Positions 27,238-63,200 of a stretch of 64,000 nt of DNA are shown piece by piece. The DNA comes from Patiria pectinifera (lineage: Eukaryota > Echinodermata > Asteroidea > Valvatida > Asterinidae), in the NCBI GenBank assembly GCA_029964075.1, contig CM057142.1, positions 32,800,392 to 32,864,391 of the forward strand, given 5' to 3'. How positions within the stretch are numbered: position 1 is the stretch's first letter; every line of letters starts with the position of its first letter. A program made the translations under genes and the position numbers. Under the pieces are notes generated by a model, which worked only from the letters and a program-made list of their open reading frames with translations, ran no database searches and was not told where the DNA came from.

Positions 27238-30200
27238 GGAGGGGAACCAACCCCTTGCCCCCCCAACGCCCACTGTGCAATGTATGACTGTATTGTGCTA
27301 TTTCCTTAGTTATTTTTTATTAATGTGAAGTATTTAGAGTTTTAAAAATGGACTAAAAAATGGGTTTAAAAGGACTAAAAAAAAAAAACGAGCATTTCCA
27401 TCAGAATTCAAACAAATCTCTTTCATCATTTCACCTGTTGTGTTGTACTATTAGGACAAGCAGATCAGAGTTTTTTGACTGATTAATTTGGATTCTAATT
27501 TCAGATCTACTATTTACCTGTATCTTGTAGATGGTGTAGGGTTGAAGGTTTGACAGGATATGTGAGAATGTCGCGGAGGGTAACGTGGCCACTACGACGT
27601 CGTCTTGATAGACGTCGTAGCGGAGTATGTCTCCGTTGGGTTGGGCGGGTGACTGCCAGGAGACTCGGAGGGCTGAGGGGCTTAAGATGTTGATGGTGGG
27701 TATTGAAAAACCTTCAGGAGCTGAAAAAGGATATGGTTAGAAAAAAAAAGTTGATTAGGACGTTAAAGTTATGAACTTGAAAACTGTCAGTGAAGCTGCA
27801 TTTTACAGAGTTAGCTCCCAGCTTTCCGTTGATACATGCAATTATGTTTTTACTCTGTCTTCTAAATCATAATTTATACTGTGTGTTCATTGTTTAACTG
27901 ATAGTTTTCTTCCTTTTTTCCTTTTATATTGTTTGTTTAAATGCTTTCACGACCGAGTTCAAAACAAAAAGCTAAATCTTTCAATTGGCGATGTCGGTCT
28001 GATTCAGTGATGGTAGTAAAGGAGCTGTCCCAACAATGTACCATTGCTCTCGTGTGGACCTCTCCTTTCAACACACAATCTATATTAAGGGCATATAGGA
28101 TCATTTGCACTTCATGCAGTTTGTTCGTCTCCAAGTGTTATTACAACACTCCAAAGATGAATGTTCAAACCCAACCCTGTTGAGGTTTCAGCTCGGTGGA
28201 TGTCATTATTTTTTTGAGAAAACAGTCAAACACCATGAACAATCTGTTTCTCACAAAACACAATTTCATAAATGTTACTCTCTTTACTTCCAACAATCAG
28301 TCAGTTGACTGATCATTGGAAATCGCCTACATTTCTTGATTTCTTCTAAATGACAGCAAGCCAGATGGAATAATTTTACGGGGTATTTAATACCAGTACG
28401 ATCTAAAATCAGAGTAAGATTTTTTATAATAATTTGGTAGGTTGCTTGTGAAATAAATGCAAATGACCCTATAAGCCTTTAACAGAGAATTGTTTAGACA
28501 CGTCTTCTCACTTCTCCATTAGCCCAAACTCAGTGTCATTTTGATCGGTACATGCTCACCAAGTACATAACTGATTGTGGTACACTTAAAAAATAGTTCA
28601 GCACTTTTGTGTCCAAATTCGGCAGCAAATTTCCAATGAGATTAACAAAAAAAACATCAGCTCACCTCCATCCAGGGTTTCTACATAGGCCAGATTGCTG
28701 GACACATTGTAAGCACCGTTGTAGATGATCACTCTAAACTCATACAGCGTGTTGGGTATGAGTAGTCCTACGGTGGTAGAGCTCACGCCCGGCGGGTAGG
28801 TGGCCGTGGTTCGAATCCCGGGGGTGGAGCTGGCACCGTACTCGACGAAATAGTTGACGACACTGCCCTTCAATTCTTGTAAGGCTGGGAAATAGGACAT
28901 TAATGTTGTCACTGTCAAAAACATGATGAAGTGACTGGGTTCTGGAAAATTTTTCTTATTAAACGATGTCGATACATTTAGGTTTTGGCGCTCTGAAAAA
29001 TATATTTTGAAATATTACTATTTCCTTCTTCCCTGCCTCTTTGATATATTACTGAGATTTTACTTTTATATGTGGGGATTCCATGAGAAAGTGGAAAATT
29101 TAATATTTATGAAATCTTCCAAACTGCAGGCATCACAACCTCAACTGTGGTATCAAGTTATAGGGGACAACAATACTTTTCATTTGAGTGATATGACAGT
29201 GAGATGGAATGTGGTCAAGTGCAAATTTTTTTGTCAAACAAACTTTTTGGGATGCTAAAATTACAGACTTTAGGTAGTAATTTTGACACCTTGTCTTTAC
29301 ATGCAAATGCTGCAAAATGTTTTGTGAGTTTTTGTTTTCAAGGCATGTTACCTTTTTCTATCTTGACCTTTCATTCAAATCAAGAAATAACACAATGAGA
29401 GCTTCTACTTTCACATGACGACAAAAAGCTCAGCTTGAAACTGCCAACAAACTCTAAAACTCACTAGGTGTGGTCCAGGTCAGGGACACAGTCACATGAT
29501 CCAGGGCGATCGCAGACAGCGATGCACCGACGGACGGCCGGCCAGCCAAGGTTATGACCTCATTGCTGGAGTTAGAGGTCAATGAGCCAACATCGTTGGA
29601 GACAGTGACCCGGTACTGGTAGGTGGTGTAGGTAGTCAAGCCAAGATCAGCATAGAAGGTTTGAGTGCCGCTGTAGATGAGCTGCCAGAAACCAATACCG
29701 ATTGGGGTTCCTGTAAGCAGTGGACAACAAGATACATATATGTTATAAATATTGAACACATTTCCTAAAAAAAGTCGATCCAAAAATCAATCTTAGCTAC
29801 ATAAGTAATGTTATTGGTAAGCATTTCATTAAAAGAGAAAGCTGAGATGAGTTGCCAGAAACCAATACCAATTGGGGTTCCTAAGAACAGTGGACAACAA
29901 GGTATGTCATAAAAATATTGAACAAATTTCCTAAAAATGTTTGATCCACAAATCAATCTAAACTACATAAAAAATGTTATTGGTAAGCATTTTCTTAAAA
30001 GAGAAGGCAGAAAACTGTGGCCTAAATACTGTGACATTTTTCAGTTATATTTAGCATTGCACAATCTTCGAGACAGTCGGGATACAATGTGTAAAAGATT
30101 GACTCTTTCTTAAAGAAAATCCTATCAATCCCAAAACCCATTTTATTTCCAGTCAATTTAATGGAATACTTAACGTATTAGCAGCTGTATAACATTGTAT

Positions 30201-33200
30201 TACATTGCGTTTATACACTGAAGAAGCCACAAAACCATTGAGTGCTCGCGCAGTTTTGGGTGCTACAGTGAGTAAAAGGCAGGGCTGTTTCAGATGCTAC
30301 TATGACTAACGAGTAAACAGGTAGCAAAACAATTTGCTACACCAAAAAATTCTCAAACTCATTCAAAGGTAAAGACATGCTAGCGCATGCCTGCATTGAC
30401 AATTTTATTTAGACTCTGCATTATTTACTCCTTCTGGTTTCTTCAAAGTGGATGAAGGTTCTTGAAAATGAAAAAGGCATGCTTGGAGAAAGTGTGTATT
30501 TAGAAATGGCATCGTTCTTAATTAACCTTTTCGTTTTTGAATAGGTGCATTAAAGAAAAGCATACAGGCATTTAGGATCTTTTGCATTTATCCCAAAAGT
30601 AACTCTTGAATTATTCTCAGTTGACTTGTATACAGAATGTATTGCTACTAAACACTCAGTAAATGATTCCGTCTGGCTTGCTGTCATTTAGAAGAAACCA
30701 AGAAATGTAGGTGATTACCAACAATCAGTCAATCGACTGATCGTTGGACAAAATCGTGTTTTGTGAACAAAAGATTGTGCATGCTTTTTCACTGTTTTCT
30801 CAAAAATTGTAATATCCATTGAGCTGATACTTCAACTGGTTAGGTTTTGAACATTCTTCTTTGGATTTTGAGTGGTTTTATTACTGGAAACGAACAAAAT
30901 GCAAAAAGAGCGGATGATCGTATATGCTAATAAGTAAGCTAGTCAACTAACTATCCCAGCTTTACACAGGTAAAATGTCACTGTAATCTACAATTCAAAA
31001 TCACCTCAAAGTCAAAATTACCTGGCTGAAGCGGTTCCCTGATCTTCATCCTGTGCAACTCGTATCTGATGTTAGGCCCATTGGGACCGGTGGGGGGACT
31101 CCAACTGACCGAGATGTAGGTCTGCGTGATGGCGTCGCCTCTAGGGGGCGCCTGGCCCACGGGGATGTAGGGATCGGTCTGGGCCGGTGTGCCGCTACTC
31201 TCTGTACAGCCGCCGATGGTACAGGCTTCTATGCTCACTGTTATGGAAAGTTTACATTCAGTCAATCAGTTGCAAGATTCATGTAGCCATGCCAATGATA
31301 AGATTTGTGATAAGATTTCAGTTGAAATCAATGCAAGTTCCATGTGAGGTTCACATCCAGTGCATGTGAGGTTCACATCCAGTGCATGTGAGGTTCACAT
31401 CCAGTGCATGTGAGGTTCACATCCAATGCATGTGAGGTTCACTTGAGTTTCATGTGAGTTTCATTAAACTTTCATAGGATTATCAGCTTCATGTCAGGTT
31501 GGTGTGAGGTTTGTATGAGGTTCACATGAATAGAAGTTCATGTGAGGTTAATGTGAGGTTCATTTGGGGATTATGCGAGGTTCAATGGAGATCTCAGTGA
31601 AGTTCATGTGAGCATTTGAGATCACTACTGAGGGAATTTTTGTTGACAAAATCTCCTGAATGTAGGATTCTTTATAATTTCTTTGCATATACTGTAAAAA
31701 AAATATGTTTTTTTTAATGATACACTATAGTTAAAGGTAATGGACACCATTTGCAAAGAAAAGGTGTTTTTGCCGATTCAAGGAACAGCAATGTGATAAA
31801 AGGGAAGCAGGTTATTGAAAAACCAACCTGTCGAACTTTCGGTTCGGTAGATATGCTTTGCAGAAAACTGTGAATTGACGTTCAAGCATAGGTTTCTGTT
31901 GAAAGCGCGATGGTTTTGTCCTAACCACTGCGAGGAAACGATGGTAATTCCTCATTTCTCGAAAATGAAGGCAAACTTAGTGCAAGGATTTCACACGATG
32001 TCTGATCCTATTATTTACTTACAATCAAGTAGGCTACTTGATGATATTTTTACAGTTTCACTTTTGAAAGATTGAAAATGGTGTCCAATTCCATAAAAGC
32101 ACAAATTGTGCAACAATTTACAGCTTTTCAGTCTTCGAAAGGACAGTTCAGCGAACAAACTGAGACATATCCAAGTTACTGTAAGAGAACTGACCTAGGT
32201 AGTTGGTATAGGGTACCAGACCACTGACTACTCTGCTAGTACCGTTGGTATCTCCGATGTACACCCTTGGCTGTGGCATCCGTATGGTGTAGCTGATGAT
32301 TTCACCATTGGTGAGAACCGGTGGTTGCCAGGCAACCAGCACTGACTGGTGATCTAGGATGGTTACGCTGGGTGGATTTACTCCCCCTGGAGCTTTGGTG
32401 TAAAAAAAAAAAAATGTACTGTTCTGAATCACTTGTCAAGTATTGACGATCAATAATAAAAAGCTTGAAAAAAAAATCAAAAAAAATTAATTCTCCATCG
32501 TCAAATACTCTACAGATACCCATCTCCAACCTTTTGATTTGAATTAAATACTTCTGATTGAACCATATTCCATGTTATTAATGAAAATTCTATTTTCTTT
32601 TTACTAAAAGCATAGTTTTATAACAATGTTTTAAAAATCCAACAAGTAATCCTTTCCTCTAGAGAGAGTCATTTTTCAATTTCCAACTGTTTTTTTCTAG
32701 TTTAAAAAAAAACTGCTACAAACTGGTTACGCTGGGTGGATTTACTCCCCCTGGAGCTTTGGTGTTAAAACAAAACACTCTAATTGTACTCTTCTGAATC
32801 ACTTGTCATGTATTGACAATCAATAAAAAAAAAACTTGAAAAAAAATCAATTCTCCATCGTCAAATACTCTACAGATACCCATCTCCAACCTTTTGATTT
32901 GAATTAAATACTTCTGATTGAACCATATTCCATGTTATTAATGGAAAACTCAATATTCTTTTAACTAAAAGCATAGTTTTACAGCAATGTCTTAAAAATC
33001 CAACAAATAATCTTTTCCTTTACAGACGGTCATTTCTCAATTTCCAACTTTTTTCTAGTTAAAAAAAAAATGCTACCAACTGTTGAGATACCGAATCAAG
33101 GACTACATGGTTTAACTTGACCCTCTAAAAATCCTAACATATATTTCAAACAATTTCAAAGAATTTAATCAAAAAATCATTTAATAATGCAGACAACCAA

Positions 33201-36200
33201 TAAAAAGCCATAAACAAAACACTCTGACTTGTATCTGACTGTTCGGTCCTTATCATTTGAATTAAGAAGTTCTTAAAAATCATCAAGCACAAATTGAAGG
33301 CAACGATGCTTACCGGCCGAGAGTGTTGTGACCGTCTGCCATAAGCTAGAGGAACTGCCAATACCGTTACGGACCCTGACCCTGTACTCAAAGACCGTGT
33401 AGGGAGTGACGGCCGGGGATTGGTCTAGGTAGACCAACGGGCTGGACGGCCCGATGGATACCACCGTGGTGACGGCAGCAAGGCCCTTGATGCGGCGTTG
33501 AATCTCGTAACCAGTCAGGACCCCGCTGGGGGAGTCGGGGGGAGACCAGGTGATCAGGACAGATGTGGGTGTCTCGGAGCGCAGGGTGGGCGCCGCTAGC
33601 CCTGACGGAACTGTGTGTGGAGGGGGAGGGAATATTAGAGTTCGCAGCATGTCATAAAAACAAAATTCCCTGAGTTTTTTTCCTGACCTTTCCCTGAGAA
33701 ATTTCCAAAATTCTATGAGAAGTATTTTCACTAAAAAACGAGGTTGCTGGTCAAGAAATGGTGCAGCACAGCCAATTGTCATTGTCTGGAGAGGTTTGTA
33801 ATATTCACACTGCAGAAACACTAAAAAGCCACCCATACTGGAATTTGCATCCTTGTGGAGACATTCCTTTGTTCTTGTGTACTAAAGTTTTCGAGTATGA
33901 AAGTGTAGTTTAAAAATGCTCTTATTTTAACCAGAATTAATTTCCTTGGCTGAAATTCAGACTTAATATCCCTTTCCTAAAACTCTTCCATTTGCGATGG
34001 ATCAACATAGCTTGGAAATTCCTAGTTTTTGAGTAAAATCCACATATCTATTTCGTGAAAACCTTGTGGAGACGTATTCATCTATAGAAATTGCCCTGTG
34101 GAGATGTATACAATCTTTTGTTCCCTATTGAACACACGTCTCCAGAGGGTACGGTGTATCAGATCACCATAGCCAGTCAGTCAATGGGCACAACTTGGAC
34201 CCATGGCACAAGATGCACATATGCCAAACTGGCGAAAACCTTTCCCTTCTAGGTCACTGTCAAATTCCCTGTTTTTCCTAAATTCCCAGAGTTTTGCCTG
34301 ACTGCAAAAATGGAAACTCATGTTCAAGGTTGTCCTTGATTTCCAGAGCGGCAGCGAACCCTGAAGATTAGCACCCAACAAATTGCTTCCTCAAACAGAG
34401 GCCTTAAATCTTGTAAAGCCACACTAGAACAAGGCCGAGATTTTGAAAACTTTCATAAAATATGAAAAATCTGAACTTTTCGCTTACTTGCTTGAGGCGT
34501 CCTATAAGTCAATGAGTGCACACTGCTTGTACATCCAGCACTGTTACACATCTCAACATGGTAGTTATAATCAGTGTATGGCATAAGACCATCGGCTAGG
34601 AACTCAGTCGCGTTGCCTGGCAGCTGTAAACACAAACACAGAGACAGAGTTAGTAAAAAAAATAGTTATTTGCCTTCAAACAGTTTTTTTTGCATATTCG
34701 CTTAGTAAGGCTTAAAGCCACTCCAGGTACAGGGCCACAAGAGAAATTATAATAAGAGTAAGTACTCTGGAAAAACTGAAGGTAGGAATTAACATTCCTC
34801 TTGAAACAGGACAGATCATAGGTTGGAGGGAAACAAGCACCAGGCAAGGAATTCCAAAGAGATGCAGCACGTGGGAAAAATGCTATTGGAATATCCTTTT
34901 GTTCTACATCTAGGTAATGGCAACAGTGTATGAATGAGAACAGGCAGAAAGCTGAGTTTCTCTCTCAAACACTGTGATTGGAGGAACCAGGTTGGACAGA
35001 CTAATGGAGCCATGACCATGAAAATATCATTAATTGAGGGTAAAAGCAGAGTCATCAGAACACAAAACCTGACTAAAGTACCTTTTCGGGATAGAACTGC
35101 CCATTTTTCAGATTTCACTTAACAATCTTTTGCCGGGATTAGCTGATGGTCCATGTGGGTTAATTTGAGGTGAAAAAAATAGGACTTGAGCGGATGCAGC
35201 CCTCATTTTTCAATTGTCTTCCTGCATTTTTCATTAACCAGGATCCCCCACCGACTGTATTTCTGAAGGTGAATTGTTTATCAGTACACTAGTGTCAGAG
35301 AATTCCCCAAAAGCTATCTCCTTTTTTTAACTGCTGATTTTATGAATTGGGTATTAACCCCATTCCATGGACCAGTAACGGAGGTTTAACAAAAAAGATT
35401 ATACATATGTGTCAACTGAAAACTAACAAACTACACAATCATGATAATATAACTTGAGGATTAAAAAACAAACCACTGACTTGATTTTGTTGGAACTTCA
35501 TTTGGATCTAAGGGGCAAGAGTTTTAGTAGGTTTTCCTTAGTCATATATTTGTTTATGAATTGTGAAGCGCATTGCGAGCTCAGACGGTCCTGAAATGCG
35601 CTATATAAGAATGTGTTATTATTATTAATATTATGGGTGCAACAAAAGGATGTTTATATCGGATACAGACGCCTTATAAATGTTCATTATTATTATTATT
35701 ATTATATTTGGCTTACATTTACACAAACCAAAAGAGATCTTAGGAAATTCCTTATAGTCCACTGACTAATCTTGACTTACAATTTGCCTGAGTAGGTTGT
35801 TCTGGTACAGCCTGACTCTACTGATGATGCCGTTGGGTTGCTCTGGCTGCTCCCATGTTACCAGCATGCTGAAGGCATCCAAGATGGCCGCCATGGGAGG
35901 GTCAATTGGCCCAGGTGCTGTGGGGGGAAAAGAAAAACATTATTTGATTGAATGCAACGACATTAATACATAACTGGGTAAAGATTAACAGTGCTGTAGT
36001 CGAGGTACATGAGATGGATCACAACCACATCGCAAGTCCAATCAAAACATCAGAAGTCTGGTCACACGTACATCGCAAGTCCGATCAAAATATCACATAT
36101 CCGATCACAGGTACATCGCAAGTCTGATCACAAGTACACCACAAGTCTGCTCACAAGTACATCGCAAGTGCAATCAAAATATCACAAGTCCGATCACAGG

Positions 36201-39200
36201 TACATCGTAAGTCTGATCACAAGTACACCGCAAGTCCGATCACAAGTACATCACAAGTCCGATCACAAGTACATCACAAGTACAATCAAAACATCACAAG
36301 TCCAATCACAAGTACATCGCAAGTCTGAACAAAACATCAGAAGTCTGATCACAAGTACATCGCAAGTCCGATCACAAGTACATTGCAAGTCTGAACAAAA
36401 CATCAGAAGTCTGATCGCAAGTACATCGCAAGTCCAATCAAAACAAAATAAGTCTGATCACAAGTACATCGCAAGTCCGATCACAAGTACATCGCAAGTC
36501 TGAACAAAACATCAGAAGTCTGATCACAAGGACATCGCAAGTCCGATCACAAGTACATCGCAAGTCTGAACAAAACATCAGAAGTCTGATCACAAGTACA
36601 TCGCAAGTCCAATCAAAACAAAATAAGTCTGATCACAAGTACATCACAAGTCCAGTCACAAGTACATCTCAAGTCCAATCAAAACATCACAAGTCTGATC
36701 ACAAGTTCAGTTACAAGTAACAGGGGATAGACAGTAACAAAAGATAATAATCAAGAACTTGAGCTATTCCCGATTCAGAAAATCTGCCACCAAAGTTGCA
36801 AATTCTACATCTTGGAAAATGTAATCTTCGCTTCGTGGAAAGGAACATTCCATCTGTCACCTCTCGAAATTATTCTTACCATCTGACCATTGCACTCATA
36901 AACATTCATTATTTGTATACTATTTTAATACACATGTATGAAGTTGGTGCACCGGCATGTACTGAATGCCACTCAAATTTGGCATCAGAAATCCCATCTA
37001 TAGTTTATACAGGCCTACATGCAACAGACAAATCAAAGAGTGTGTGTTGATTTTTTTAAATGGGAAGGCTTGGCTAAACCTTGAGTTTTTGAGAGAACTC
37101 ACCAGCCTCCGAGGTAAACGCAGCTGTCCAGCCACTCTCTGTCTCGCCGTAGTTATTACTCGCTATGACTCGGAACTCATACTCGGTGTAGGGACTCAGG
37201 CCAGTCTTGATGAAGCTAGTCACAGTGACTGGACTATCAAACAGGCTAGAGGATTCAAGAGAAACAAAGTAATAAATTAATGAGGGCAAATTTTGCAATT
37301 CACAGTACAGTGGAAAGCCGCTACAACGAACATCGCGGGAGCCACAGAAATGGTTCGTACATGTAATGGCAATCGTTTGGCGTAGCAATTTTAAGCTGCT
37401 GGTGCTCCGGTACTCACTTTTCAATAAATAGCGCCCTTCAGAACTTCACCCTGCATGCCCTGATAGTTACTGAAAGACAACTTTGAACATGTGCCGACTA
37501 TTGAATTATGTCATTATACAGTTTTTGAGCTCACTACCTACAGCGATGGGTGGCTTTCCCCTTCTATTCCTTCGGGACGTAAAAGCCACTTGTCGCTCTT
37601 CTCTTGACATTGATATTTTCAACATTAATGTTCGGTACGTTTTGTAACACAAAAATTGGGAGCCAAGGACATTGTTTGGTATAGCCGAATGTTCGGTATA
37701 GCGGTGTTCGGTATAGTGGTGTTCGGTATATGTTCCACTGTACATCATGGTAAAAAGTAAACAAAAAATGTGATATAGGCGTTAAAATATAAAAGAGCTG
37801 TCATTCCCCAAATAACATGTTCATCATTATTATTAATAATGAGGCTTCGCCTCGCCCGCTTCACTGGTGTCGGGGGTGAGGGTAAGGGGGAGGGGGTGGG
37901 GGTTGTGGGCGGTGGATGAAATGGTACCCTTGCCTTTGCCTCGGGTACCATCTGCCCCCACACACAAAAATGGCCCACTCCACAGAGGGTAATGTACTCA
38001 CTCCTCTTGAAGTCCTGGCTGCAGGGTTGGCCGGAACTGTAGCTGGTACTTGGCGTCACCGGGTGCGTTGTTCCTTGCTGGGACCTGCCACTGGGCACGG
38101 ATGGATGTCGAGGACAGGGTTACCAGTGTAGGCGGGAACACACCATCAGGACCTCAAGAATTGAAGCACAGAATCAAAGACTGTCAGTGGAGTTTTACAT
38201 CAATGTTGTATCTTGTTAAGCGCACATAGGATCATTTGCACTTACCCCAAAAGTAACCTACCAAATTATTATCAAAAACCTCACTTGGATTACAGATCCT
38301 ACTGGTACTAGACACCCCGTGAAATTATTCCATCTGGCTTGCTGTCATTTGGAAGAACGAGGGTGATTTCCAACGAACAGTCAATTGTTCATAAGATGGA
38401 ATTTTGCGTCGGGGTGATGTAAATCAAATTAGGTTTTGCCCTTCACCGACGTATATAAACACTGTATACTCTGTGTGTTTATTCGAACCAGCCAACCGAT
38501 CCCGTTAGCTCGGTGGTCGAGTGGTAAGACATCTGCACTAGAAAGCAGGAGGTCGTGGGTTTGAGTCCCACCCGAGTGATTTTTCAACTTTCACTCAGGA
38601 GGTAACACACTGAGTATACAGTGTTTATATACGTTGGTGAAGGGCAAAACCTAATTTGATGAACAGTTAATTGACTGGTTTTGGGAAATAACATGTTTAT
38701 ACATTGACGAAATCATGTTTTGTGATAAAAAATGATTGTGCATGTTTTTTTCACTGTACATGTAGTCTTGAAAAGTGTAATATCCACTGAGCTGAAACTT
38801 CAACAGCTTAGGTTTTTCTACATTCTTCTTTGGATTTGTCTTGTCCCGTTACTGCAAAAACCACCACGATTGGGCTATGTATGAAAAGCAAAATGATCCT
38901 TTATGCACAATAGTTGTTGTCTTATACTTGTTCATGTTTTTTTGAGAATCACTATGTTATTTTGAAAAAAATTCTACATTTTCAATGTGGGCTAGTTTTA
39001 CCACTTGAAGGAATTAATACTTGTATAATATTTCTAAGGCCTTAATTTAAGAAAAAAAAGTGGAAAAAAAAGCAACAAGTGGAATTATTTATGCACTTAC
39101 TTCCTTTTGGCATGCGCACGTCTTGCTGGTTGCTGAGCAGGCTGCCCTTAGTGTTGTAGCCTAGTACCTGCACCGTGTAGGGTGAGTCCGGGATCAGACC

Positions 39201-42200
39201 TGAGATGGCCACCAGCATGTTAGCGTCGGTGGTGTTGAGCAGGGTTCGGGTCTGTGAAATGGTGTTGTAGTTCCCTGTCTCTGTGAAAGGCAAACATCCG
39301 CAAAAATGGTTATACAGTATCAACAGGGGATGAACAATAGCTTGTGACTTGACCTGGGATTGGATGACTTGTGCACTTGTAAAGACGTATGATGGACTTT
39401 CGAGGATTTTTGTGTGGACTCGTTAGGATTTGTGAAGAACTGTGATCGACTCAAATACAGCACCGTGACAGGCCATTAAAAGTAATATACAACGTTTGCT
39501 TTTGCTGTAATTTTCAGAAATGGATGGATTTGGGGTTGGTATTTTACAGCAAATATTGTTACACTGACCTGTTTCAAGTTTTGTGTTCGTGGGTGCTGGA
39601 AAAAAAACAAGAATAAAATGCTGCTCTTTTAGTCTGGTTCCCTGAACCTACCTCAGAGGAAACGGAGCAATTTACAGACGTCGGGGAATGGTCAGGTCAG
39701 AGGACCAGTTTAGCTGGCTTGCACCCATTCACAGATGTGTAACCGATTACAAACAAAATGTGGACTAATAACATTTGGTAAATTGGGGTCAGAATAAAAA
39801 TTCCACTTTTCTTGAAAACGACAGCATATCAGGTGCCATGATTTCACAGGATGCTTGAGACTATTTTTCAGTTACAGTCAAGTATTAAAGGTATTTCATC
39901 ATAATTTGGTAGTTTTGGTTTTTGATGTCTGCAAATGTTGTATACTCCCTTTAACCAACACTGGTTTATATTTTTCAATCATACAATCAGCAAGGTGACT
40001 GGTGCTAGGTCCTCGTACAAAAACTAAAATATGCATGGTTACTGAACCTCAACTAAAGCAAACTAACTTACCCGGCGAAACGTAAAATATCCCAGTGAAC
40101 AGCACTTCATACTGCAGGATACCGTTAGGGCTATCCGGTGCGGTCCAGCGCGCTGACACGGTGCGCGCATCGGTCACAAACACGCTCAGCATGATGCTGC
40201 CCGTGGGCGGGGCCTCGGCGGTACGGGCCGAGGTCTCGGGACCGTAGGAGCAACCTCGCGAGGTACAGGCCTCCAAGCGGAAGATGTGGAGGCTGTGAGG
40301 GGCCAGGCCGGTGGCGCGGTAGGACAGGCTGAGGTTGGCGAGGACCACGGAGCCGTCCTGGATCAGGGTGTAGCGGGTGATGACTCCTGAAATGAGAGCA
40401 AGGAGAAATAGATGCAGTGATTGTTAGGGCCGTCTTGTTGCCATTGCTTTGGCTTTGAGTTAGTCCCTGAAAACATGTAGTCCATCACAAGGCCATGAAA
40501 AGGGCCACTTGATTCAAGGTGCGGGCTACACATAGACCAGAGAAAAGAGGGAGGTCAGAAACTAAAGCAATATGTGTCCAAATACATTAAAAAAAACAGG
40601 AGACTTTTTGGTTGGAATGAAACATACAAGTTGAAAATCTATTAATAAAAAAAAAGGGGAATTTTTCAAAGGGCACAGGGAACGCAACTGGACAGAAGTG
40701 TTTGTCTACTCACCGTTTGGATTTTCAGGTGCAGTCCAGGACACATGCAACTCATTCGGGCTGATGACAGTCACAGAGGGAGCTGGTACACCCTCTGGAA
40801 TGCTCTCCTCTGTGCGCGCAGTGGCTGGTGCACTATTGGTGCAACCTCCCCCTGTGCAGGCCTGGAATTAATGACAAATTTGTGCAAAGTCTCAGTGGCT
40901 TTTCTATTCAACTTAACATTTTTTACAAGTTGAGATGACCAAAAATGCTGCTGGTTGCTATAAAGAAGATGGTACACTCTCTGTAATACGGCGCGTGTGG
41001 CCAAGCGGTTCGGGTTAGTGACTCATGATCAGAGGGTCAGGGGTTCAAATCCAGCTGCTGGCCACTTGTTGTGTCCTTGGGCAAGCCACTTTGCCCAAAC
41101 TTGCCTCTCTCCACCCAGGAGAGATGGGTACCAGCATTAGCAGGGGAGTAACCTGCGATGGACTGGCATCCCATCCTGGGGGGGGGGGATAGAAATATTT
41201 TCAGTCTTTTCGTTCCAAGGAAACTGGAGATAAACACCAGCCAAGGACAGACTTTACTTTTACGCTCTCTGTAAAGCTTTCTCTCCCATGTAATGTCAAA
41301 TGCATTATAAAGACTTTTAAATTGATTATGTAATGCTGGCTTTCCATGAACTGAAAGCTCATATATTTTTTTTAGTCCTGCGCTATTGAATGGATAAGAA
41401 AAAAGAAAACCTGATTAATTAAGTCTACTAGAAAATACTCACACTAAGGACCACGAGGTACGTCGTTCCAGCCGTCAACTCAGACAGAACATGACTGCGT
41501 ATCAGCACAGTGGAGTTGTAGACCTCTTGGCCCAGCTGTCCCGGCTGGACCGACAGGAACAGCGCGTATCTCTCCAGGCGACCGTTGAGCTGGGCAGGCT
41601 CCACCCAGCTGACTTCGATGGAGGTGGGGCCTCTGGCCAATAAAGTGGGCGGGGGGACAAAGGTCGGAGGCCGCTGGGCGGTGGTGATGCTGACCTCGGG
41701 GCTGTCCGTGCAGCCAATAGTAGTACACGCTACCACACACACAACAATTTGGGTTATTTTCTCAATAGGTAGTGATTTTTGTGCAAAAGTAAATACAAAG
41801 CCATCTATGGCAAACAGTTTATTGAAAATAAATGTGGAATGGTATTTCAATATACCAATGATTAAAAAAACTCAAGTTTATTTACCATCGTAAATGTTTT
41901 AAGTCTTGCATGGCAAATAATGGTTATTAAATACAAATCACGCATCCCATAGCATAAAAAAAATGTTTTCTATTCAGTTTTGAAATGCAACATGGTGTAC
42001 AGAGAGTGAACCGGCAATTGTAAACATTTAAGTCATATAGGATCATTTGCATTTACCATAAAGGTAACCCACTGAATTATAAAAACAAACAAGAAGCTGA
42101 CTTTAATTAAAGATCATAGTACTAAACACCCCGTGAATTATTGTGTCTGGCTTGCTGTCTTAGAAGAATTCAAGAAAATGTAGGCGATTTCCAAAGACCA

Positions 42201-45200
42201 GTCAATTCACACTAATTACTAACGTTATAATGCAACCCTGCAAGGTTGTTAGCTCAAAAATTGTGTACACTACTCACACATTAGCCTGTATTAAATCCAA
42301 TAGCACCTTTGTTTAATTTCACACACCAGACTGGCGTGTGCATTCCACAGAAGTAATCAAGTCAATCACAAGTCAGTCATAAGTCATCGCAAGTCATCTC
42401 AAGTTATTGTAAGTCGTCACAAGTCATAATAAGATGGAATTTTTGCGTCGGGGTGATGTAAATCAATATTAGGTTATACCTCGGTGAAGGGCGAAACCTG
42501 ATATTGGTTTCATCACAAGTCAATCACAACTCCATGAAAAGTCATCCAGTGTCATCCCGTTTCAGCCATTGAAAAATACTTTAGTCATCGCTCATCCGCC
42601 GTTATTTGTGAACTGAATTGTGAAATGTGATTGACTTGTAGTTGAATAGATTACAACTCTGTTGCATTCAGTCAAGAACCAATCTGCTTTGGATGAAGAG
42701 CGTTCCTCCGTGTATTTGGCATGGCTGCATGCTTCACAAACTCTATCTAAATCGCCACATTGCCAAAAATACTCCTGGCAGGTCAAATATTTCCGGCTCA
42801 CCTGTGACCTTGAACCGGTACGCCGTGTAGACCTGTAGGCCAGACTCAGTGTGCGACTGCTGGACACCGGTGTAGACTGTCAGGTCATTCATTTGTAACG
42901 CGTAGCTGGTGATGACACCGTTGGGCCGGTCTGGTTCCGGCCACGTCAGCGCTATAGTATCCGCTGTGGTGGACGTGGGCTGGGGCGGATTGACACCTTC
43001 GGGTGCTGATGGAAAGAGAGGGAAATTATAAACAAATGGAAAAACTTGTTTGAAGCAGGAAAACTGCAGATTAAGAAGGGTTGTTGAAAAATTGTTTTTC
43101 CTGACAGTTCAGAAAGATTTTGACAAAAATCTGAATTTTGCCGCAAAATTTCTTGAGGTTTTAGAGGAATGATGAACATGCTGCAAAAATCTGTTCTACT
43201 GAGTGGTTCTGCTACAATGCCACTTTGCCTTATAGGAACACTGGTTTTGGGTTATCTGCAGTTTATCGTCATCACCAGAATGAAACTGACCACACCAGTG
43301 GCAGTGAAACATTTCTGGAAGTATGTGTGGGCGGGCCGTCACCACGTTATGGGGAAGTTGTTTACTGTTAGGCAAATTAAGACCAAGTTATGGGGACTTG
43401 CTGCTGTCCCCACAGCATCTTCGATCCCCATAGTACCATGGGACAACTCGTGTGTAGTCCCCACAACTATGGAACAAGTATGTGTGTACATGTATACACA
43501 TTTAAATTGTGGATCTTGAACAATAGAGGACAATAGGGTCCACGATTGACCGAAGGTCTTCTGTTGATGTGTGTATGTACAAAACATATGGGAGGTCTTC
43601 CTAAAAAGTTAGAGTATAAACAAATGAGGGACAATAGAGAGAGGAGGGAGGGGAAAAAACCACCACCTATGACCCACACTTACCTTCTTGTAGTGTCTGG
43701 ACATCCACGGCTGAGCTCTCAGTGCATCCCCCGGCTGTACAGGCCGTGATTGTCACTCTGTAGCTGGTGAACGGAATCACATCAGTGATGTTACCTGCTC
43801 AAAGAAAAAGGAAGAAAAATAACAATGTATACATAGCTCATTGGTCCAATGGTAAGTCATTTTTATACACGAGTATGCAGGAGTTTAAGAGTTAAGTCCA
43901 ACTGTATAGGCTTGTGAAAATATTCATTTTCTCACACGCTCTCTGATAGCACTGAGTAAACAGTGCTTCGAGACCATTACAGAGGTAGTATCAAACTTGT
44001 ATGCAGGCCACACGTAAACACTCAGTGCTCCCCAAGTTTCTATGAATATCATCTTTAAAACTTTAGTATCACATTGAACTTACATATTAGGGGTTATGGG
44101 GTTTAAAGCTATAGTCCATCATTTGCAACTATCCAAAAAGTAACTGACGTAATTATTGTTGACAAACATACTTGGTTGAAAGATAGTAAGGGGACTAAAC
44201 TCCCTGTGAAATTATTCTTTCTGGCAAGCTGTCATTTTGAAGAAATCAACGAAAGAAGGCCTTTCCAACGGTGCGTCTTAAGACGCACCGTTGGAAATTT
44301 CCGTTAGTAGTTCGTTTTTTTATTCGGCAAAGCGCGGGCAAGCGTTGGCACGACCCACACATGCGCATGGTTACTATAATTCGTCGGATCGGTGCGCGAC
44401 ATCGCGTAGCTACAATCGGCTCAGTGAGAACGTGTCTCGGATGCTGAATTCAGGCCCAATTCAAAACATGATTCAGCAACTTTTGATTTGAAATCGAGAT
44501 CCTAGAATGCTGTTTATCTCAAAATATACAGCTGAAGCTGAGTTAAAACTTCATCAGGTTGGTTGTTCAGCACCCTTCTTTAGCTTTTTAACACTTTTGT
44601 TGCTTCAAATGAACAAAATGCACAAATTACAAATGATGGACTATATCTTTAAGGAACAGATGGCAAAATGAGGGACAACAGGACCCCGCAAGTCGCATTA
44701 TAGAAAACTCATTAATTGGTTTCAATGGAAACAAAAGGAGAAAAGTGGGGAAATAATGGTCCACAATAGTGGTGTACATATAATTAAACATGGTTCCCTG
44801 TAAGCAATAAGCAGCATGCAGAAACAAAAGGGACAATAGAAGCAACAAGTCAGTTTTTAACAATCTATCTGCCCAATAAGGAAAACGCTATAGAGTTTGA
44901 GATTCCAGCAGAAGCATTTCAATAGGAACAAAGGAGAACAAAAGAAGAGAAACAAAGGTCTTCCCACAAGTATATGTATGTAAGGCTGTGCACACACACA
45001 CACTTCATGTATGGTGGCTTTACGATAGAAGACAGACACACCAAGGGAGAACAAAAGATCCTTTCATTCTTCGAGGGTTGGGTCTTTTGTTCAAAACAGT
45101 CCTCGATTATACGGCTATGTGCATAGTCTATGGGAGAGTGTCATATAACAGGGACAAAGGGAAACACAAAGCATTGTCCTCGGGCATATAGAAATTCACG

Positions 45201-48200: not shown

Positions 48201-51200
48201 ATGGGGAGTCAGGTTGGCGTAGCGGTACTTTCCCCGCCTTCCATCGCTGTGACCCGGGTTCGAATCCCGCCTGGGCCAATATGTGGATTTGGTTTTCAGT
48301 CCCTGCCTGATTCCGTGGGTTTTCCTCAGAATACTCTTAGGGCTTTTCCTCCCACATCTAAAACTGTAATTTCTTCACATTGTCTTCTCTTTACTGGGCC
48401 CCATGGGAGACCAGTGGATTCCACTGAATGGGCTACCCAGTTAAAATAAGAAATAAAAGACATACTTTACTACAATCACCTCCAAAAACAAAAGAAAACG
48501 TTCAACATACCAGTGTACGTCTGAAGTCCATCATCCCCAAAGCTGGTATCTTGGCCCGTATAGACTGCAGTAGTGGTGGGCGTGATACAAGGGTCAGAGG
48601 TCATGGTCTCAGCTGGGCAGCCATCCAGGTACACATTGGACAGCTCAGCCCCCTGGACTGAGAAGTCCAGCCGCTGACCGCTGATGACCAACTGACGAAT
48701 ACATCCACCAAAACCTGGAGAGAAAAGAAAAAAAATGTAATTCAGCTCTCGCAGGGCAGGTTGATTTGTGCTCAAAATGAAAGCCCTTTTTCAGAGGTTG
48801 CCCAAAATCGGAATAAAGTTGTTTTTTTTTCTTTAAAACTAAACGTACAATATGAAAATTTGTTAGGAGAAAAAAACAAGTTTTGAAGGGCATGGGGTAT
48901 GCAATTTAACAACTATTTGGGAATTATATAACTGACATACAGGTCCTTGTCATTTGATTGGTGGAACTCACATCACGTGACATTCATTATTGCTCCCATT
49001 CACGCCTGGGCTCAAAAAGTCCCATTCGCCCATGGGGAATGGGAAATACTATTCAACAGGATCTATATGTCAGTTATATAAAACAAATATTGAGTGGCTT
49101 CAAATTGTGAAATGGGAGGAATACTATCACTCAGTAAAATCTGGACTTTTCCAGTTCACTCTGCTTTGCCTCAAAGACCAGATTTTACCTTGCGATAATA
49201 TTCCTCCCACTCTACTTTGAGCCACTCAATATTTGTATACTGTTGTGCCTGCAAAAAAAAACATGCATAATATGATGAAATAATCCTTCACAAACCTGAT
49301 TGGAATGTTAACCCAGCATTACTAGCAAAGTCCACAGCATCCGAGTCCTCAGGGACACCGCCCATGAAGAGCTTGGATGTGATGACCAGGGGTGCACTAT
49401 CGCCGGACCCAACGGCCTGCGGTCCGCCAAGCACACCCACTGTCACCTGGGCTCCATTCTGGACCACGGTGACCGAGTGCCACTGACCGTCGCAGAGGTT
49501 AGCCCCCGAGGTGGATAAGGTCAGGGGATCGGCTGATCCTGTACGAATGACGAGCTGGCGGGATATGATACCAAGACAAACGAAATGCAATCAAAAAACA
49601 CTGCCATCAATGATCCTGGGCCCCTACTCTCTTAAGGTTATACCACAACCCTCTCCGACACTGCAGAACAATTGGGTAAATTCAAACGTGGGAGTCTGTG
49701 ACTAGACTAGTCAGTGTTTGGTACTAGGACTGGCAAGACTTGCATGTTCTAAGTTCACCTTAAAGTTAACTGAATGTGCACGTGTACACTCAATGAAATA
49801 ATTTTTCTGCTTATTTATGGAGGCATTTTATGACTAAATTTAGTTATGAACTATTGTAATATATACACAATATTGTTATTATAATTATAATTTTTTTATC
49901 ATTTTAATAGGACTTAATTCAAGGACCAAGATTCCTAATGAGCCGATGTTAAAGATAAAGTTTCCGGCCAAAACTTGAGTTCAAATTCTCCCTACCTCCA
50001 AGTCTCCATTGACTAGCTGCAGTAGTAGGAAGGCCCCATCGGAAGCATAGGCAAACATGACCAGACCGGAACTGAGCTGTGTCCTCATCTCCAGAGTAAC
50101 AATGAATGCTGGCCCACCGGTAACTGTCCCCTCCGGCAGAATAGCGTACCCTGTACAAATCACAATGGGTTTCTTTAAAGTCAAGTGCCAGACCACACAA
50201 TTGTGAATAAAATTTAAATGGGAAACAGTTAAAGGGAATATACATCACTTGCTTTTGCTGTAATTTTCAGAAATGGATGGAAATGGGGGGTTGGAAATAT
50301 ATAGCAAATATAGTTACACTGACTTTTTTGAGGTTTTGGGTTCGAAAATGCTACAAAAACCAAGAAAAACAATCATTTTCCTGTAGTCTGGTTCCCTGAC
50401 TCCATATAAGAAGAAACAGAGCAGTTTACATACATTGGGGAATTGTAAGGTCAGGGAACCAGTCTAGCTGGCTTGTACCCGTTCATAGGTGTGTAATCGA
50501 TTGCAAACAAGTGCGATGGTCAATTGGGGCCAGTATTTGAAAAAAGCCAGTTTTTTCCAACGCTGGTCAGCCGACCAGCGTTGGAAATTGATACAAAAAT
50601 ACCACTTTTCTTGAAAATGACAGTATACCAGGAGTTATGATTTTACAGGATGCTTTACAGTGTCATTCACTAACAGTCCAGCAAGGTATTTCAAAATGAT
50701 TTGGTTGTTTTATTTTTTGATGTTTGCAAATGTTGTATTTTCCCTTTAACAGTCATTATGGCCAAGTATGGATTTAAAGTTCAAATGCCAAACATCCTGC
50801 ACATTATTTTTTGGTTGAATCATACATTTTTTAACAAGAAAAGAAAAACAAGGATTTTTTTTTCCATTTCATTAACAAAGCGACTACTGTAGGTTAATTT
50901 AGTCCAAAATGAACTTCTAAAACAATCTTGAAAATGGACTTGCGCATGAGATCTTTATTTTTTCCAAGGAGCTGGAAAAGAAATGACGGAATTGTGAAAT
51001 TTGAGTTTTTCTGCATCATCCCCGAAACTCCACAAAACAAAATACCTACAACCCCACTATACAAAATAAACGGCCCCTCATCGTACCTTTTCCCAAGAAA
51101 TGCGCCCCTCCTGCCAGTCCCACGGGGCACCCCTGCCATCCAGGCACGGTGTTCTGTCTCGCCACAGCCCCCTCCCACTGTAGCTCCTCCCACAAAGAGG

Positions 51201-54200: not shown

Positions 54201-57200
54201 TATTCTGTCAAAAAAATCTCAGACACAATGATGTTGCGATATGTTTACCTTGTTGGATCACGGAAGTCAGTCAGAGACTGCATTGCTTTCATGCCATCAT
54301 GCATCGTGAAAGTCATTCAATTGTTTTTTTTTTTTAGCTCATCATAGTATGGTGACTACTTCAAGAGGTGAATTTCAGTTTTTTTCTCTTAATAAACTTT
54401 TTACTTGTATGTTAATTCCAACCCCAAAAAGCTTTCTATATTTTTCCTTTTTAGGATGTCTGCAACCTTCTGAGAAAAAAGCTGAACATTCTTTTTTGAC
54501 ACAAACATTTCCACTTTGCAAGCAGACTGTCATCCTGTTCGTGCATTATCAGTACTGATTGTGGGGCGGGCACCAGCCTACCCAGCAAGAATGAAATTAT
54601 AGTCTGGCACCCAATAATTCGAAATTGTAAAGTCATAATTCAATAACTAAACATGGGCCCATTTTTCAGTCGATGTCTCATTCAAAAGTGAACCACCTTC
54701 GTTTTGCTAGAAAAAAACTCAATTTAGAGACAAAATCAATTTTTCGTGAAGAAACTCGAAAATAGCATGAGGAAAGCAACTCTAAAACAGCCTCTGACAT
54801 TTGATTCACCTTAAGCCGACACTCCATGGTTCATTGACGCAAGTAAATTTTACTGTTTTTATTTGTTGAAACTATTATGCATTTCAGTTGGCTGTACCTG
54901 ATTCAAGCGTTCTTCCAGCCGATCTGTCGCTCTTCACGCAGCCAATGCTGTTGCATGCCTCAATGATAAACTCATGGAGGGCGTATGGCTGGAGATCATT
55001 CACAATGTAATAGTTGGAGGTCCCATCCGATGTGTGAATCAACTGTTATACAAAATAAAAACAGACAGATAATTAAAGGCATATAGGATCATTTGCTCTT
55101 CATGCATTCTGTTTGTTTCCAATGATAACACCACTCAAAATCCAAAGAAGAATGTTCCAAACCTAACCTGTTGAACTTTCAGCTCAGTGGATAATACACT
55201 TTTCAAGAAAACGTGGAAACAAAGCTAATGGACCGATCCAGTAAGCTCCGCCCAGTGCGCACGTGGGCAAATTAACACGTCCAATGCCACGCTGCATTTT
55301 TCTGCCGCGCGCATCATACGCGCGTGCACGCATGTCGGACTTTAGTGCACGCACGTCAGACATAAATCACGGCTGTGATTGGTCAGAACACCATGGGGCG
55401 GTGCTTACTGGATCGGTCCATTATGCCCCTGCAAGTGCATTGGTAAGGAGAGATCAACTACTGGTCAACCTATTGTTCACACCCGGATTTGCTCCCAGTT
55501 CTTAATAGACTTAACAGCAATCTTTTCAAATTATGCACATAGTATTAGGCCATGTCCAAAACAATCACTGTCATCTACATCTACAGCTATTCTCTCTCGC
55601 ATACAGCGTGTGTCAATAAAACGCAGGATTAGAAACAAAAATATTAAGAATATAAACCACCCCTATTCATCATAATGTTAACCCTCTTTTCAAAGTACCT
55701 TTCCTTCTCTTCACTATGCTTTTTATCCCATCTCATTTGGACAATCCTGTCCAGAGATAGAGTACACTGAAGAAGGGTTATAAATTCCAAGCTGGTCTGA
55801 TTTGTGAAATCACACATACCTAATGAAAGGTTTGAATTCAGTACAGGTGAAAGTATTTGTGGATCACAAAGAAGGACATGTGTGGCAGGATTAGGCTTAC
55901 ATAATCCTTTTAATAGTCCACAATCAATGTTATTAGTCAATAATTCATGATGCTTTGAAACAATGATAGTCCAGTTATTAAATTTAAGTGATACTTATCA
56001 TCAGTTGTTTCAAAGAAAGTTTTGTTCTGGTTTAATTGTCTCCAATGCATACCTGCATTGTACATAACTGGTCGTTGTGTTAAGGTCATTGAATCAGACC
56101 AACCCGCTTCAGAAGGGATTCACAAAACTTGTCATAACTTTTGAACCAAAAGTCCAAATTCCACCAAACAAAAATCTTGTCAAAGATGAAATTATGGACA
56201 ATCAAATCCTTATCAAATTAGGCACACCAGTAGCATAATTTTCTCAGAAAAAAAATCGCTTTGAATCCTGCGTTTTTATTGTCACACGCTGTACAGTGAC
56301 AACAACCAACGCCATAGCCACAAGATACCCATTCAGACACAGAGTACAGCTTACCGTCTGGATCTCCGGGGGAGCGAATGGATCATCAGACATCACAATC
56401 TGATAGACATTGTACTGGATGATAAAGCCTAGGGCCTGTCTCTCTGTCGGTGGCTGCCATGTCACATTCAGTTGGGAGCTGGAGATGCCGTACACGTACG
56501 GTGCTGGGGTGGACAACGGCACTGGAAAGAAATGCAAAACACAAAAATGTCTACCACCACTTTCTATATAGGAACCATAGAATAGAGCGTGTAAGCCTGG
56601 CCAGTCCATGTTCACTTTTTCGGTGAACGTCGTGGTACCAAACACTGATTAGTCTAGTCACAGACTCACGTGTTTGGATTTATCCAATTATTATCCTCAT
56701 GATCAATTGAATGGAAGTTGAGGTCAACAATTTGTATTTTATAATAGTCATCACATTGCAATATTTTCAATATTTGCAAATTGTTATGCTTTCTTTCCTT
56801 TCGAAGTGCCAATTTATTGCCTTTGATTGGATGGGCCCAGTCAGGACAAAAAAGAAATGCAACAAATAGGGCATTTATACACACGTTGTAGATCCTACAC
56901 ATGGTGCCTGGATGTGCTGTATTCTTGTAAAATCTTGCATGTTTTCGAGGTCAACTTGCACACTCTATAGCATTATAATATGCAAACAAATATGTTTAAG
57001 TTAAAAATCCTTTATTGTAATAACTTTAGAAGGTCATACAAACGTTTACAAAATTGTGAGAAACGTGTGGCTTTTGAATTATTATGGAGTCCCTTATGTG
57101 CACTTTTTACTTTTATTTTCAGCCTAAGCTGTGTAATTTCTAAGAATGTTCTAAGGCCTTTGGTTGTTTTGTTTAAGTTCTTAATTGGCCTGCTTGCATG

Positions 57201-60200: not shown

Positions 60201-63200
60201 GATTTAAAGGTCAGATGGGACTGACACCTATGACAAGGTTCCAAGAAACTGGGATGACCAATGAGAAAGATACGTATCTTTATGACAGTTCATTTGCATA
60301 AATGGTCACTTAAAGGCATTTAGGATCATTTGCATTCATCCAAAAAGTTACACAGCAAATTATTATCAAAAAGCTTATTTGGATTTAAGATTGTACTGGT
60401 ACTAAATAACCCGAAAAATGATTCTGTCTGGCTTGAACTAAAGAAACGTAGGTGAATTCCAACGATCAATCAATCGACTGATCATTGGAAATATTAAAAA
60501 GAGTTCTATTGATGAATCGTGTTTCGTGATGAAAACGTTGTGCGTGGTTTTTCACTGTTTTCTCGAAGAGTGTAATATCCACAGAGCTGAAAGTTCAACA
60601 GGTTGGGTTTTGAACATTCTTCTTTGGATTTTGAGTGGTGATATTATTGGAAACGAAGAAAACGCATGAAAAGCAAATGATCCTATATGCCTTTAAGTTG
60701 ACCCTTTGATGGAATTATGATGACACCAGTGCAGAAACCACTCAGACAATGTGCTTGCCAAGTGTCCAATTTGAATCTGAAGCAGTAGTGGATACATCAT
60801 CCCAATGCAAAAAAAAAGACTTATCAAGAAGAACTTGTCAAATTTTAACATTCAATTCCATCATTACGGACGTTACATTTTTTTTCAAACAAAAAGCCAC
60901 AATAACACTTGCATTTTGCGTGTGAAAACAAGATGCCAAATGGACTACCTAAAATCCATGATTTTAGTCCCAAAAACCTTTTTTTTTTAAATACATTTTA
61001 CAAATTCCATCTGACTGGCACACCACTCAAGAAAAGGTTTTGTTGTCCCGTTTTACAGGCATGCAACTTGGAAGAAACAAAAAACGAGGAAACCAAAATC
61101 TTTACAAGACTTTGTACAGTTTTTTTTTCAATTTGTCAATGGCATAAGTGTGAAGTGAAAAACGAGGAAATCAGCTGATCCAAGGAAAAGTTGCAAACCT
61201 GGTTTTATGCAATACAACATTTGAGGTCGTGATGCTTGTCGATCTGAAGATTTCATAAATTTTCCACTTTTTAGCAATGTCCACTTTCATGTGGAATTGC
61301 CCATTTTCAAAACTGAATCACTCACCGAGAGGATCGTTGCCGTACAAGCCATTGTACACCAGCACACCATCCCTGTACAATCTATACTCTAGGATGTTCC
61401 CATTGGGTGCATCCGGGGGACCCCAGACCAGCCGAAGAGAGAAGGGTGTCAGAGCACTCCAGCTAGGGGCAGGCTGCTGCTCGGGAGCTGAACAATGCAA
61501 ACAGACACAGTTAGATGTACACCTAGGTATAGACCATGCACCGGGGTTCGAAATTAGCAGTAGCCTTCTAGCCAAATGCAAAAAAATGTCATCGTATGTG
61601 TGCAAAATCATAGCGGAGTACCAGCAAAATTGAACAGATCGTGTTCTGAAGTATAACATTTGGCAAAAAAACCTTTGGACAGAGAAGTGTTTTTAGGTGT
61701 CTTGTGTATCAAAACTTTTGTGTGAACGAAAGTTCATCTCCTTTCGACTGCATGAAAAATTGCACAGAATGCAGATTTGGTTACCACGTCCCCCATAGCC
61801 TTGTGTGCATTTATCTGCCACGGTTATCCCCCCCCAAAAAATTGTCAAATCTTGCTGTGCACCAGACTATTTTGGAATACCACACTGGCTTATTGAGACA
61901 TGTTCTTATACATGTACATCAGTGTGTGTTAATACTTTTGTGGATGTCACAAAGTTGAGAACAAACTTCAAAGGATTAAATTAGACACAAAAAACTGCGT
62001 AGACAGAAGTTAGACAGTTATGAGACAAAAATGACCTGCTAGCACATGCACTCAGAATGTAAATACATAAGACTGTTCGGGTAACCAAAACAAATGATGG
62101 GTAAGCAACCTCTGTCTAACAGTAATTTTGCACTCTAGACATTTACGATGGAAAGGGCAAACAAATAATTTGAATTGATATGTTTTCATTTTATTAAAAA
62201 TAAAAATCACACTGGGTCTACATTCATCAAGTTGGTATGTAAGAAAATGTTAAACAAAGTAATGTGCTTAAGGTTGGAAGCAGTTACAAGCAAATACACA
62301 AATACATGACATTAAGCAAATTTCAACATTAAACAACCACTGCTCTATACCAACCTTTACTGCATCCCAGCGGGTTACCAGCCTGCAGATTGCTTGTTCC
62401 ACTCTTACACGTATCACACCGTCGACCGGTTACCAGTTCTTTACATTCACACAGGCCGTTGTTGGGCTCACATGTTGTATTGAGACTGCCAGCTGGGTCG
62501 CAGGCACACAGCTGACATCTGAAAATCACAAGAAAACATGTTTTTACAAAGCTTTTGTCTAAGAGAGGCCACTTTTAACACTTACCATCAACATTCTGAT
62601 GTACAATTCTGCAGTTATTCAGCCATCCTATACTGTTCACTTGCAATACCACATAAAGACAAGCGGCCCTGCAAATAAACTCATTCTTATTTTGAAAAAA
62701 AAAATCTAACTTAAGTCACTTAAGTCACACATGTCCATAAAAAATGAAAATTACTGTGCCCCATTTTGTTTAAAAAGGAAAACCATTTGGCATACATTTT
62801 TGGACTGTTTTTCCATACTGCACTGCAAAATTGGTCTTTCCATGGTAAGCTTTATGTGGCAAACAGCACAGTGAATCACTCCTGAAGTTGATAATACCTA
62901 ACTCACGTGGCAAATGAACTTTTACAGAATAAACGTTGTAGTGAAGAGGGACCAGTTCCTAAAGGTCTCTCTCAAATGACGTCATGTCCTACAGACGTGC
63001 ATCGGCATTTTGAGCGTCAACTTGCACAACGTGCATCAGCTGCGTCATATATATCAAACACATTTCGAGCAACAAGCGCGCGTGTATGGAACATTTTCAA
63101 CACTGTGCAATGCGTGTTTGATTGTACAGAGTTGCAGTTCTCCTACAGAGATGGCCGTCTTAGAGACAGACCTATATGAAAAAGGTTTTCACTTTGCAAA

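Follow-up and report, generated by a model that had tools for sequence, protein, structure and literature searches.

The window analysed here is a stretch of 64 kb with 41.7% GC and a CpG o/e of 0.61, in which exons of a fibronectin-III-rich gene lie on the minus strand, and which is on that ground regarded as animal DNA. Twelve of its 15 open reading frames (ORFs) of at least 120 aa were scanned against Pfam, the three ORFs overlapping the large FN3 ORF being left out. Four ORFs gave matches, with fn3 the strongest each time, accompanied by the DSCAM Fn3 domain, purple acid phosphatase N and chitinase A N, and none of the 12 matched a transposase family. Searching the window with family profiles, we located 18 loci of a group of short elements (10 of family A, three of B, four of C and one divergent locus, D), a count in keeping with the at least 13 copies or fragments claimed by an earlier reading of the sequence alone. 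The profiles were built from the A, B and C copies, with D1 added as a single sequence, and hits to these copies are thus built in. This search newly detected the left half of A10, and the A, B and C profiles and the D1 query gave no further locus in the window at E 0.01. All evidence on copies comes from inside the 64-kb window, with few copies for B and C. The loci, together with the parts of the B3 element, are as follows.

44103 to 44652, + strand: B3, complete, both TTAA duplications included
44262 to 44297, + strand: palindrome of B3, perfect, 36 nt, 18+18, no loop
44107 to 44261, + strand: B3 left module, from the tip up to the palindrome, with homology among A, B and C
3543 to 4050, + strand: B1, palindrome at 3701-3736
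13864 to 14413, + strand: B2, palindrome at 14023-14058, decayed
6882 to 7263, - strand: A1, core of the palindrome deleted, remnants of the arms kept
19640 to 20035, - strand: A2, palindrome at 19839-19874
22062 to 22437, - strand: A3, palindrome at 22242-22277
28085 to 28482, - strand: A4, palindrome at 28287-28322
30562 to 30933, + strand: A5, palindrome at 30715-30750, a deletion beginning in the right arm
38216 to 38912, + strand: A6, an insert with a tRNA gene interrupting the palindrome at its centre
42027 to 42210, + strand: A7, left half only, stopping just beyond the palindrome centre
55073 to 55219, - strand: A8, right half only, palindrome region absent
60310 to 60696, + strand: A9, palindrome at 60456-60491
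317 to 705, - strand: A10, divergent, no recognisable palindrome
25346 to 25870, + strand: C1, palindrome at 25505-25538
39476 to 39954, - strand: C2, palindrome deleted
50229 to 50749, - strand: C3, palindrome at 50554-50587
63444 to 63704, + strand: C4, right half only, palindrome region absent
31731 to 32097, - strand: D1, divergent relative, with TTTCC where the palindrome would lie but no clear palindrome

The sequence-only reading had set out from the element at 44103-44652 and described it correctly, as TTAA stands at both ends and the palindrome at 44262-44297 is a perfect 18+18. Apart from the split A6, the 14 elements in which both ends are kept span 359-542 bp. Being short, multi-copy (18 loci), bounded by terminal inverted repeats (TIRs) of ~20 bp and devoid of coding capacity, the elements qualify as MITEs; coding capacity was judged from the ORFs of at least 120 aa, 0 of 15 of which overlap an element by coordinates. 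The insert at the palindrome centre of A6 (38387-38660) is flanked by an imperfect ~12-bp duplication and consists of two 62-nt inverted arms around a tRNA-like gene at 38507-38579 (47.3 bits in Rfam); a shorter copy of the ends of this insert lies at 42429-42516. A second tRNA-like match at 24114-24186 was identified as tRNA-Ala by ARAGORN (35.5 bits in Rfam), and these two tRNA matches were the only structured RNAs detected in the whole window at Rfam gathering scores. Nested inverted repeats at 5900-6380 (63 nt with 94% and 137 nt with 90% complementarity) resemble a separate fold-back element, while short repeat arrays of the CAAGTC/CACAAGT type occupy 36004-36749, mostly spaced 23 and 43 nt, and 42350-42560.

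The TIRs are ~20 nt long, and the two ends of an element agree at 21 of 22 positions in A and at 19 of 22 in both B and C. In each family pair both ends have changed at 7 of 22 TIR positions, and one end alone at 2, 2 and 3 positions. TTAA is present on both sides of eight of the 15 elements keeping both ends; counted per end, left ends have it in 10 of 16 cases and right ends in 13 of 17 (23 of 33 together). The A, B and C consensuses start with AG at both ends (AG..CT), in agreement with the definition of Kolobok by 5'-RR and YY-3' termini in passages of PMC9587614. The terminal motif AGGRR, given for T2-MITEs in passages of PMC6004289, is matched by C (AGGGA), not by A (AGGCA) or B (AGCTA at the left end, AGATA at the right). 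Assignment to piggyBac MITEs was considered and rejected: TTAA agrees, but the ends start AG, not with the CC[C/T]T terminal motif reported for piggyBac in passages of PMC2872659. TTAA duplications in combination with AG...CT ends fit Kolobok/T2-type MITEs rather than piggyBac, and Kolobok is probably the mobilising superfamily. A, B, C and D are best read as subfamilies of one non-autonomous TTAA-targeting DNA transposon lineage (MITEs) of the Kolobok/T2 type.

The families had been described as differing in sequence, which is incomplete, since the stretch between tip and palindrome is homologous in all three. By blastn (one copy per family), profiles and a joint alignment, this homology covers ~155 bp with 60-75% identity, and the consensuses of the left module share 117/155 (A-B), 96/156 (A-C) and 93/155 (B-C) positions. 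The palindrome lies at a matching distance from the tip in the three consensuses, the stretch from TTAA (included) to the palindrome being 160 nt in A, 159 nt in B and 162 nt in C. From the CATTTGC motif to the palindrome the distance is 141-145 nt in nine of 12 copies, and it is shorter in A9 (129 nt), A6 (134 nt) and A5 (136 nt), each of which has private deletions. The interior differs between A, B and C, and the right ~115-140 nt are common to A, B and D. Most of D1 is related to A (A profile, 4e-11), and more weakly D1 is related to the right end of B (B profile, 3e-6; E 0.002-0.007 against the B copies).

Where the homology ends was tallied over 20 cross-family profile alignments with the copies A2-A5, A9, B1-B3, C1 and C3, leaving out A6 with its split and A7 with its halved palindrome. 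Twelve of the alignments ended no more than 3 nt from the far palindrome edge and two more at most 7 nt from it; among the remainder, five stopped 20-59 nt short and one extended 14 nt beyond the edge, further than which none of the 20 A/B/C alignments reached. Over the 60 nt beyond the palindrome, A and C had 18 identities versus 20.8 in shuffled sequences, which is not better, and B and C had 11 versus 22.1 in an alignment that was mostly gapped, while A and B had 24 versus 18.9, which is slightly better. This limit of homology applies to comparisons among A, B and C. It does not apply to A and D, because D1 used as query gave alignments running through the palindrome in six A copies (A1-A5 and A9), and the A profile aligns across the palindrome position in D1. 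At that position D1 carries TTTCC, 142 from the tip motif and matching the palindrome distance; as a search for a palindrome remnant in D1, its alignment to the C palindrome was equalled by 341 of 2000 shuffles. The interior directly 3' of the palindrome contains a GCGC-rich stretch in B1-B3 (44298-44460 in B3) that is absent from A, and C elements such as C3 have a second inverted repeat, ~CTGGTTCCCTGAC / GTCAGGGAACCAG, with a loop of ~50 nt to the right of the palindrome.

The palindrome of A, B and C is 34-36 bp long, with outer arms TTTCCAACG/CGTTGGAAA and symmetric cores that differ by family. Perfect arms of at least 12 bp with a loop of at most 8 occur at five sites in the whole window, four of them palindromes of the A/B/C type and one a poly-T/poly-A tract. 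The exact arm pattern had two matches in the window versus 0.00 expected in 100 shuffles, and a relaxed pattern recovered copies of A, B and C in a scan of the window. Much of the sequence-only reading stands here: the core sequences that it quoted are correct (that of C3 given as on the + strand), and constant arms, variable cores and shared ends all hold across A, B and C. An intact palindrome is not present in all copies, being missing, damaged or unrecognisable in A1, A6-A8, A10, C2, C4 and D1. The outer arms are identical at 18 of 18 positions in every family pair, once two tied CpG positions of A are taken as CG. In the left module, 77 of 154 columns are identical in all three families and one of 146 nine-column windows reaches 9/9 identity. 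Over 11 copies, only four of 146 flank windows are conserved equally to or better than the left arm, and 28 of 146 equal or exceed the right arm; the suggestion that the arms are conserved beyond the flank is upheld for the left arm and more weakly for the right, whose lower conservation is partly explained by CpG columns. With the CpG columns removed, the conservation scores of the arms were 0.96 and 0.92 versus 0.79 for the flank.

Five core pair positions differ between A and B, five between A and C and three between B and C, every one of them on both arms and none one-sided; the C core is one pair shorter, with one base missing per arm. The family palindromes compared here are majority sequences with ties resolved, in which two A CpG positions and three C positions were read as symmetric. 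At right-arm columns 28-29 of A, the six copies have C3/T3 and T2/G2/C1/A1, which we read as the CG of B and C on the view that TG, CA and TT are decayed forms; a plain majority consensus of A has TT in place of CG in the right arm. The C palindrome derives from two copies differing at four positions (one paired and two one-sided differences), for which we used the symmetric letter at one-sided positions and the C1 pair at the paired position, and the B palindrome derives from three copies with no tie of consequence. Because of the tie-breaks in the A arm and in C, the zero count of one-sided differences is cleanest for the A and B cores. Most simply, the cores would be one ancestral palindrome diverged in place by paired changes, given that A, B and C share its position and boundaries, its arms and the inner GTC/GAC. 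To judge from these alignments, both arms appear to have changed together as A, B and C diverged.

Swapped cores, exchanged between elements, had been proposed instead. The conserved arms could act as crossover sites for recombination, but the core matches the family of its flank in all 11 aligned palindromes, and we regard such exchange as extremely improbable. Swapped cores were rejected, since flank, boundary, arms and inner GTC/GAC fit plain divergence, with 0 chimaeras among 11.

Within families, nine A and B copies have 28 one-arm and two two-arm differences from their own palindrome, some of the one-arm differences in A falling on tied CpG columns. Neither two-arm difference restores a pair, giving 0 restored among 30 changed pair positions. 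Between C1 and C3 there is one paired change, from G/C to C/G, and there are two one-sided ones. A pair count over the 11 copies gave 87.6% paired cells versus 78.2 in shuffles, 18 two-sided cells versus 6.3 and a covariation score of 0.268 versus 0.120 (0/500 shuffles in each case), three scores that are inflated by kinship among the sequences. Pairs with two-sided change (5 versus 4.4; 256/500 shuffles as high) and further pair types (14 versus 12.8; 170/500 as high) showed no excess in the same copies. Decay of individual A and B copies is unpaired.

Paired change might be a mutational product of little or no function, generated by template switching in a quasi-palindrome that copies arm onto arm in source elements. 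Such copying would agree with a perfection that runs through the centre, with two-sided differences between families and with the paired C1/C3 change, which arose within one family. However, the 0/30 restored pairs indicate that arm-to-arm copying is not frequent in resident copies, and template switching alone does not explain the shared boundaries and the fixed tip distance in three families. We consider this origin quite unlikely.

Symmetry might also be kept for base pairing, as a DNA hairpin or cruciform or as an RNA stem with a role in transposition, replication or transcript processing, for which any self-complementary core would work. The sequence changes while the symmetry stays, the paired G/C to C/G change between C1 and C3 lies within one family, and B3 folds with -19.6 kcal/mol as DNA (z -10). 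Yet in six folded copies the four centre bases fall in the predicted loop and are nevertheless self-complementary, reading AATT in A, TTAA in B and GGCC in C1. A loop needs no symmetry, so this symmetric centre, which C3 lacks through a mismatch, counts against pairing. Moreover, pairing alone would not demand the sequence conservation seen in the arms and inner GTC/GAC, and no Rfam family matched the palindrome at gathering scores. The functional hairpin suggested by the sequence-only reading is possible in this light, and we rate pairing as the basis of the symmetry as rather unlikely.

A MITE codes for nothing, and a stretch that is alike between subfamilies 25-40% apart is hence most likely needed in cis by the transposition machinery. 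The palindrome closes the stretch common to A, B and C at a fixed distance from the tip. We tentatively favour, at somewhat less than even chances, the reading that it belongs to the transposition signal of the left end, most likely as a dyad site recognised by a transposase dimer. The left ~155 bp and the palindrome would then form a left-end cis-acting unit, and the right ~115-140 bp (A, B and D) a right-end unit. A dimer of the mobilising transposase, or of an accessory protein, would bind the palindrome at fixed spacing from the cleaved tip, and the palindrome might promote transposition or restrain it in the manner of the innermost site of piggyBat. As transposases diverge, both half-sites would change together, as the two TIRs mostly did; a homodimer with drifting specificity would lead to paired changes such as those observed. 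TIRs and palindrome behave alike, since both are family-specific and internally matched. By analogy with known systems, a protein dimer may read the palindrome, and selection through transposition would probably maintain it. Several findings speak against a dyad site: its 34-36 bp exceed the 17-19 bp of the piggyBac palindrome, a dimer would not require symmetry at every base, D1 and A10 have no visible palindrome and the A-D homology crosses it, the perfection of the family palindromes owes something to tie-breaks, two of the pair-count measures did not exceed shuffles, and the precedents are of the piggyBac type, whereas the present elements are without the piggyBac terminal motif.

The palindrome might instead be where a homodimeric nuclease encoded by the autonomous partner acts; a general proposal of this kind exists for the His-Me finger nucleases of KolobokP, which may cut within their own terminal repeats. 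The ends of the elements are Kolobok-like, and the palindrome is touched by five of 11 large indels or breaks (binomial 0.0014), a post hoc count made by eye on events of at least 12 nt with A10 and D1 left out, which we take as a hint only. Palindromes are deletion-prone anyway, and the A6 event, with its imperfect ~12-bp duplication, resembles an ordinary insertion. Passages of PMC9587614 relate the KolobokP nuclease to I-PpoI, a homodimer on a semi-palindromic site, and leave open a homing site inside the KolobokP terminal repeat; the same passages give KolobokP target-site duplications (TSDs) of 3-5 bp without strong target preference, unlike TTAA, and repeats of ~450 or ~660 bp, unlike the A/B/C elements. 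A nuclease site is accordingly judged very unlikely.

A further development of the dyad-site reading, which we put forward as doubtful, is that the palindrome is a third, internal transposase code co-evolving with both TIRs, in which symmetry, including that of the centre, would be required and sequence would be partly free. Descriptions of MITE ends are usually confined to TIRs and target duplications. If a third code exists, matching pairs of TIR and palindrome would keep subfamilies apart, TTAA transposons would have a new end architecture, and the autonomous partner could encode a dedicated reader of the palindrome, either a homodimeric nuclease or a DNA-binding protein. A palindrome with paired divergence at the inner limit of the A/B/C left-half homology provides a testable map of a Kolobok-like left-end cis signal, and the A, B and C palindromes are a natural test case for separating the importance of symmetry from that of sequence. 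No description of Kolobok-like end recognition was found in the literature passages searched.

Outside the window, a loose arm pattern matched four viral contigs, whose cores are imperfect; beyond this pattern they did not match the window at E 0.01. The arms with GTC/GAC had 0 matches in prokaryotic genome contigs and viral contigs, and the tip pattern had 0 in viral contigs; these negatives say little, because the collections hold prokaryotes and viruses. A word search of the PMC open literature returned no paper on the A/B/C palindrome, and the families may be listed in Repbase.

Among known systems, the T2-MITEs of the Kolobok group in Xenopus (passages of PMC6004289) resemble A, B and C in their TTAA duplication, AG ends, short non-autonomous form and several subfamilies; they differ in AGGRR, which only C matches, and the stem 'palindrom' is absent from the main text of PMC6004289. 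The solo terminal repeats of KolobokP are likewise bounded by RR..YY ends and short TIRs over a few hundred bp, and passages of PMC9587614 describe them as probably self-sufficient in mobility and as occurring in 7 animal phyla. We rejected this identity, since TTAA is found here in place of 3-5 bp TSDs with no strong target preference, and since the lengths differ from ~450/~660, the nearest to 450 being C2 at 471, a deleted copy. In piggyBac, also a TTAA transposon, a palindrome of the left end is bound by a dimer of transposase cysteine-rich domains, but it measures 17-19 bp and lies at bp 17-33 from the tip, compared with 34-36 bp at ~155 in A, B and C (passages of PMC7351741). In piggyBat, according to passages of PMC11707139, three imperfect left-end palindromes are bound by the cysteine-rich-domain dimer; the innermost lies at bp 107-120, where a third binding site restrains activity. 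The CMITEs of corals are TTAA MITE families as well, with a common interior and differing TIRs; they are ~100 bp long, have CCC ends and are linked to piggyBac, and the stem 'palindrom' is absent from the main text of PMC2872659. In passages of that paper, its authors suggest a role in transposition for the shared interior.
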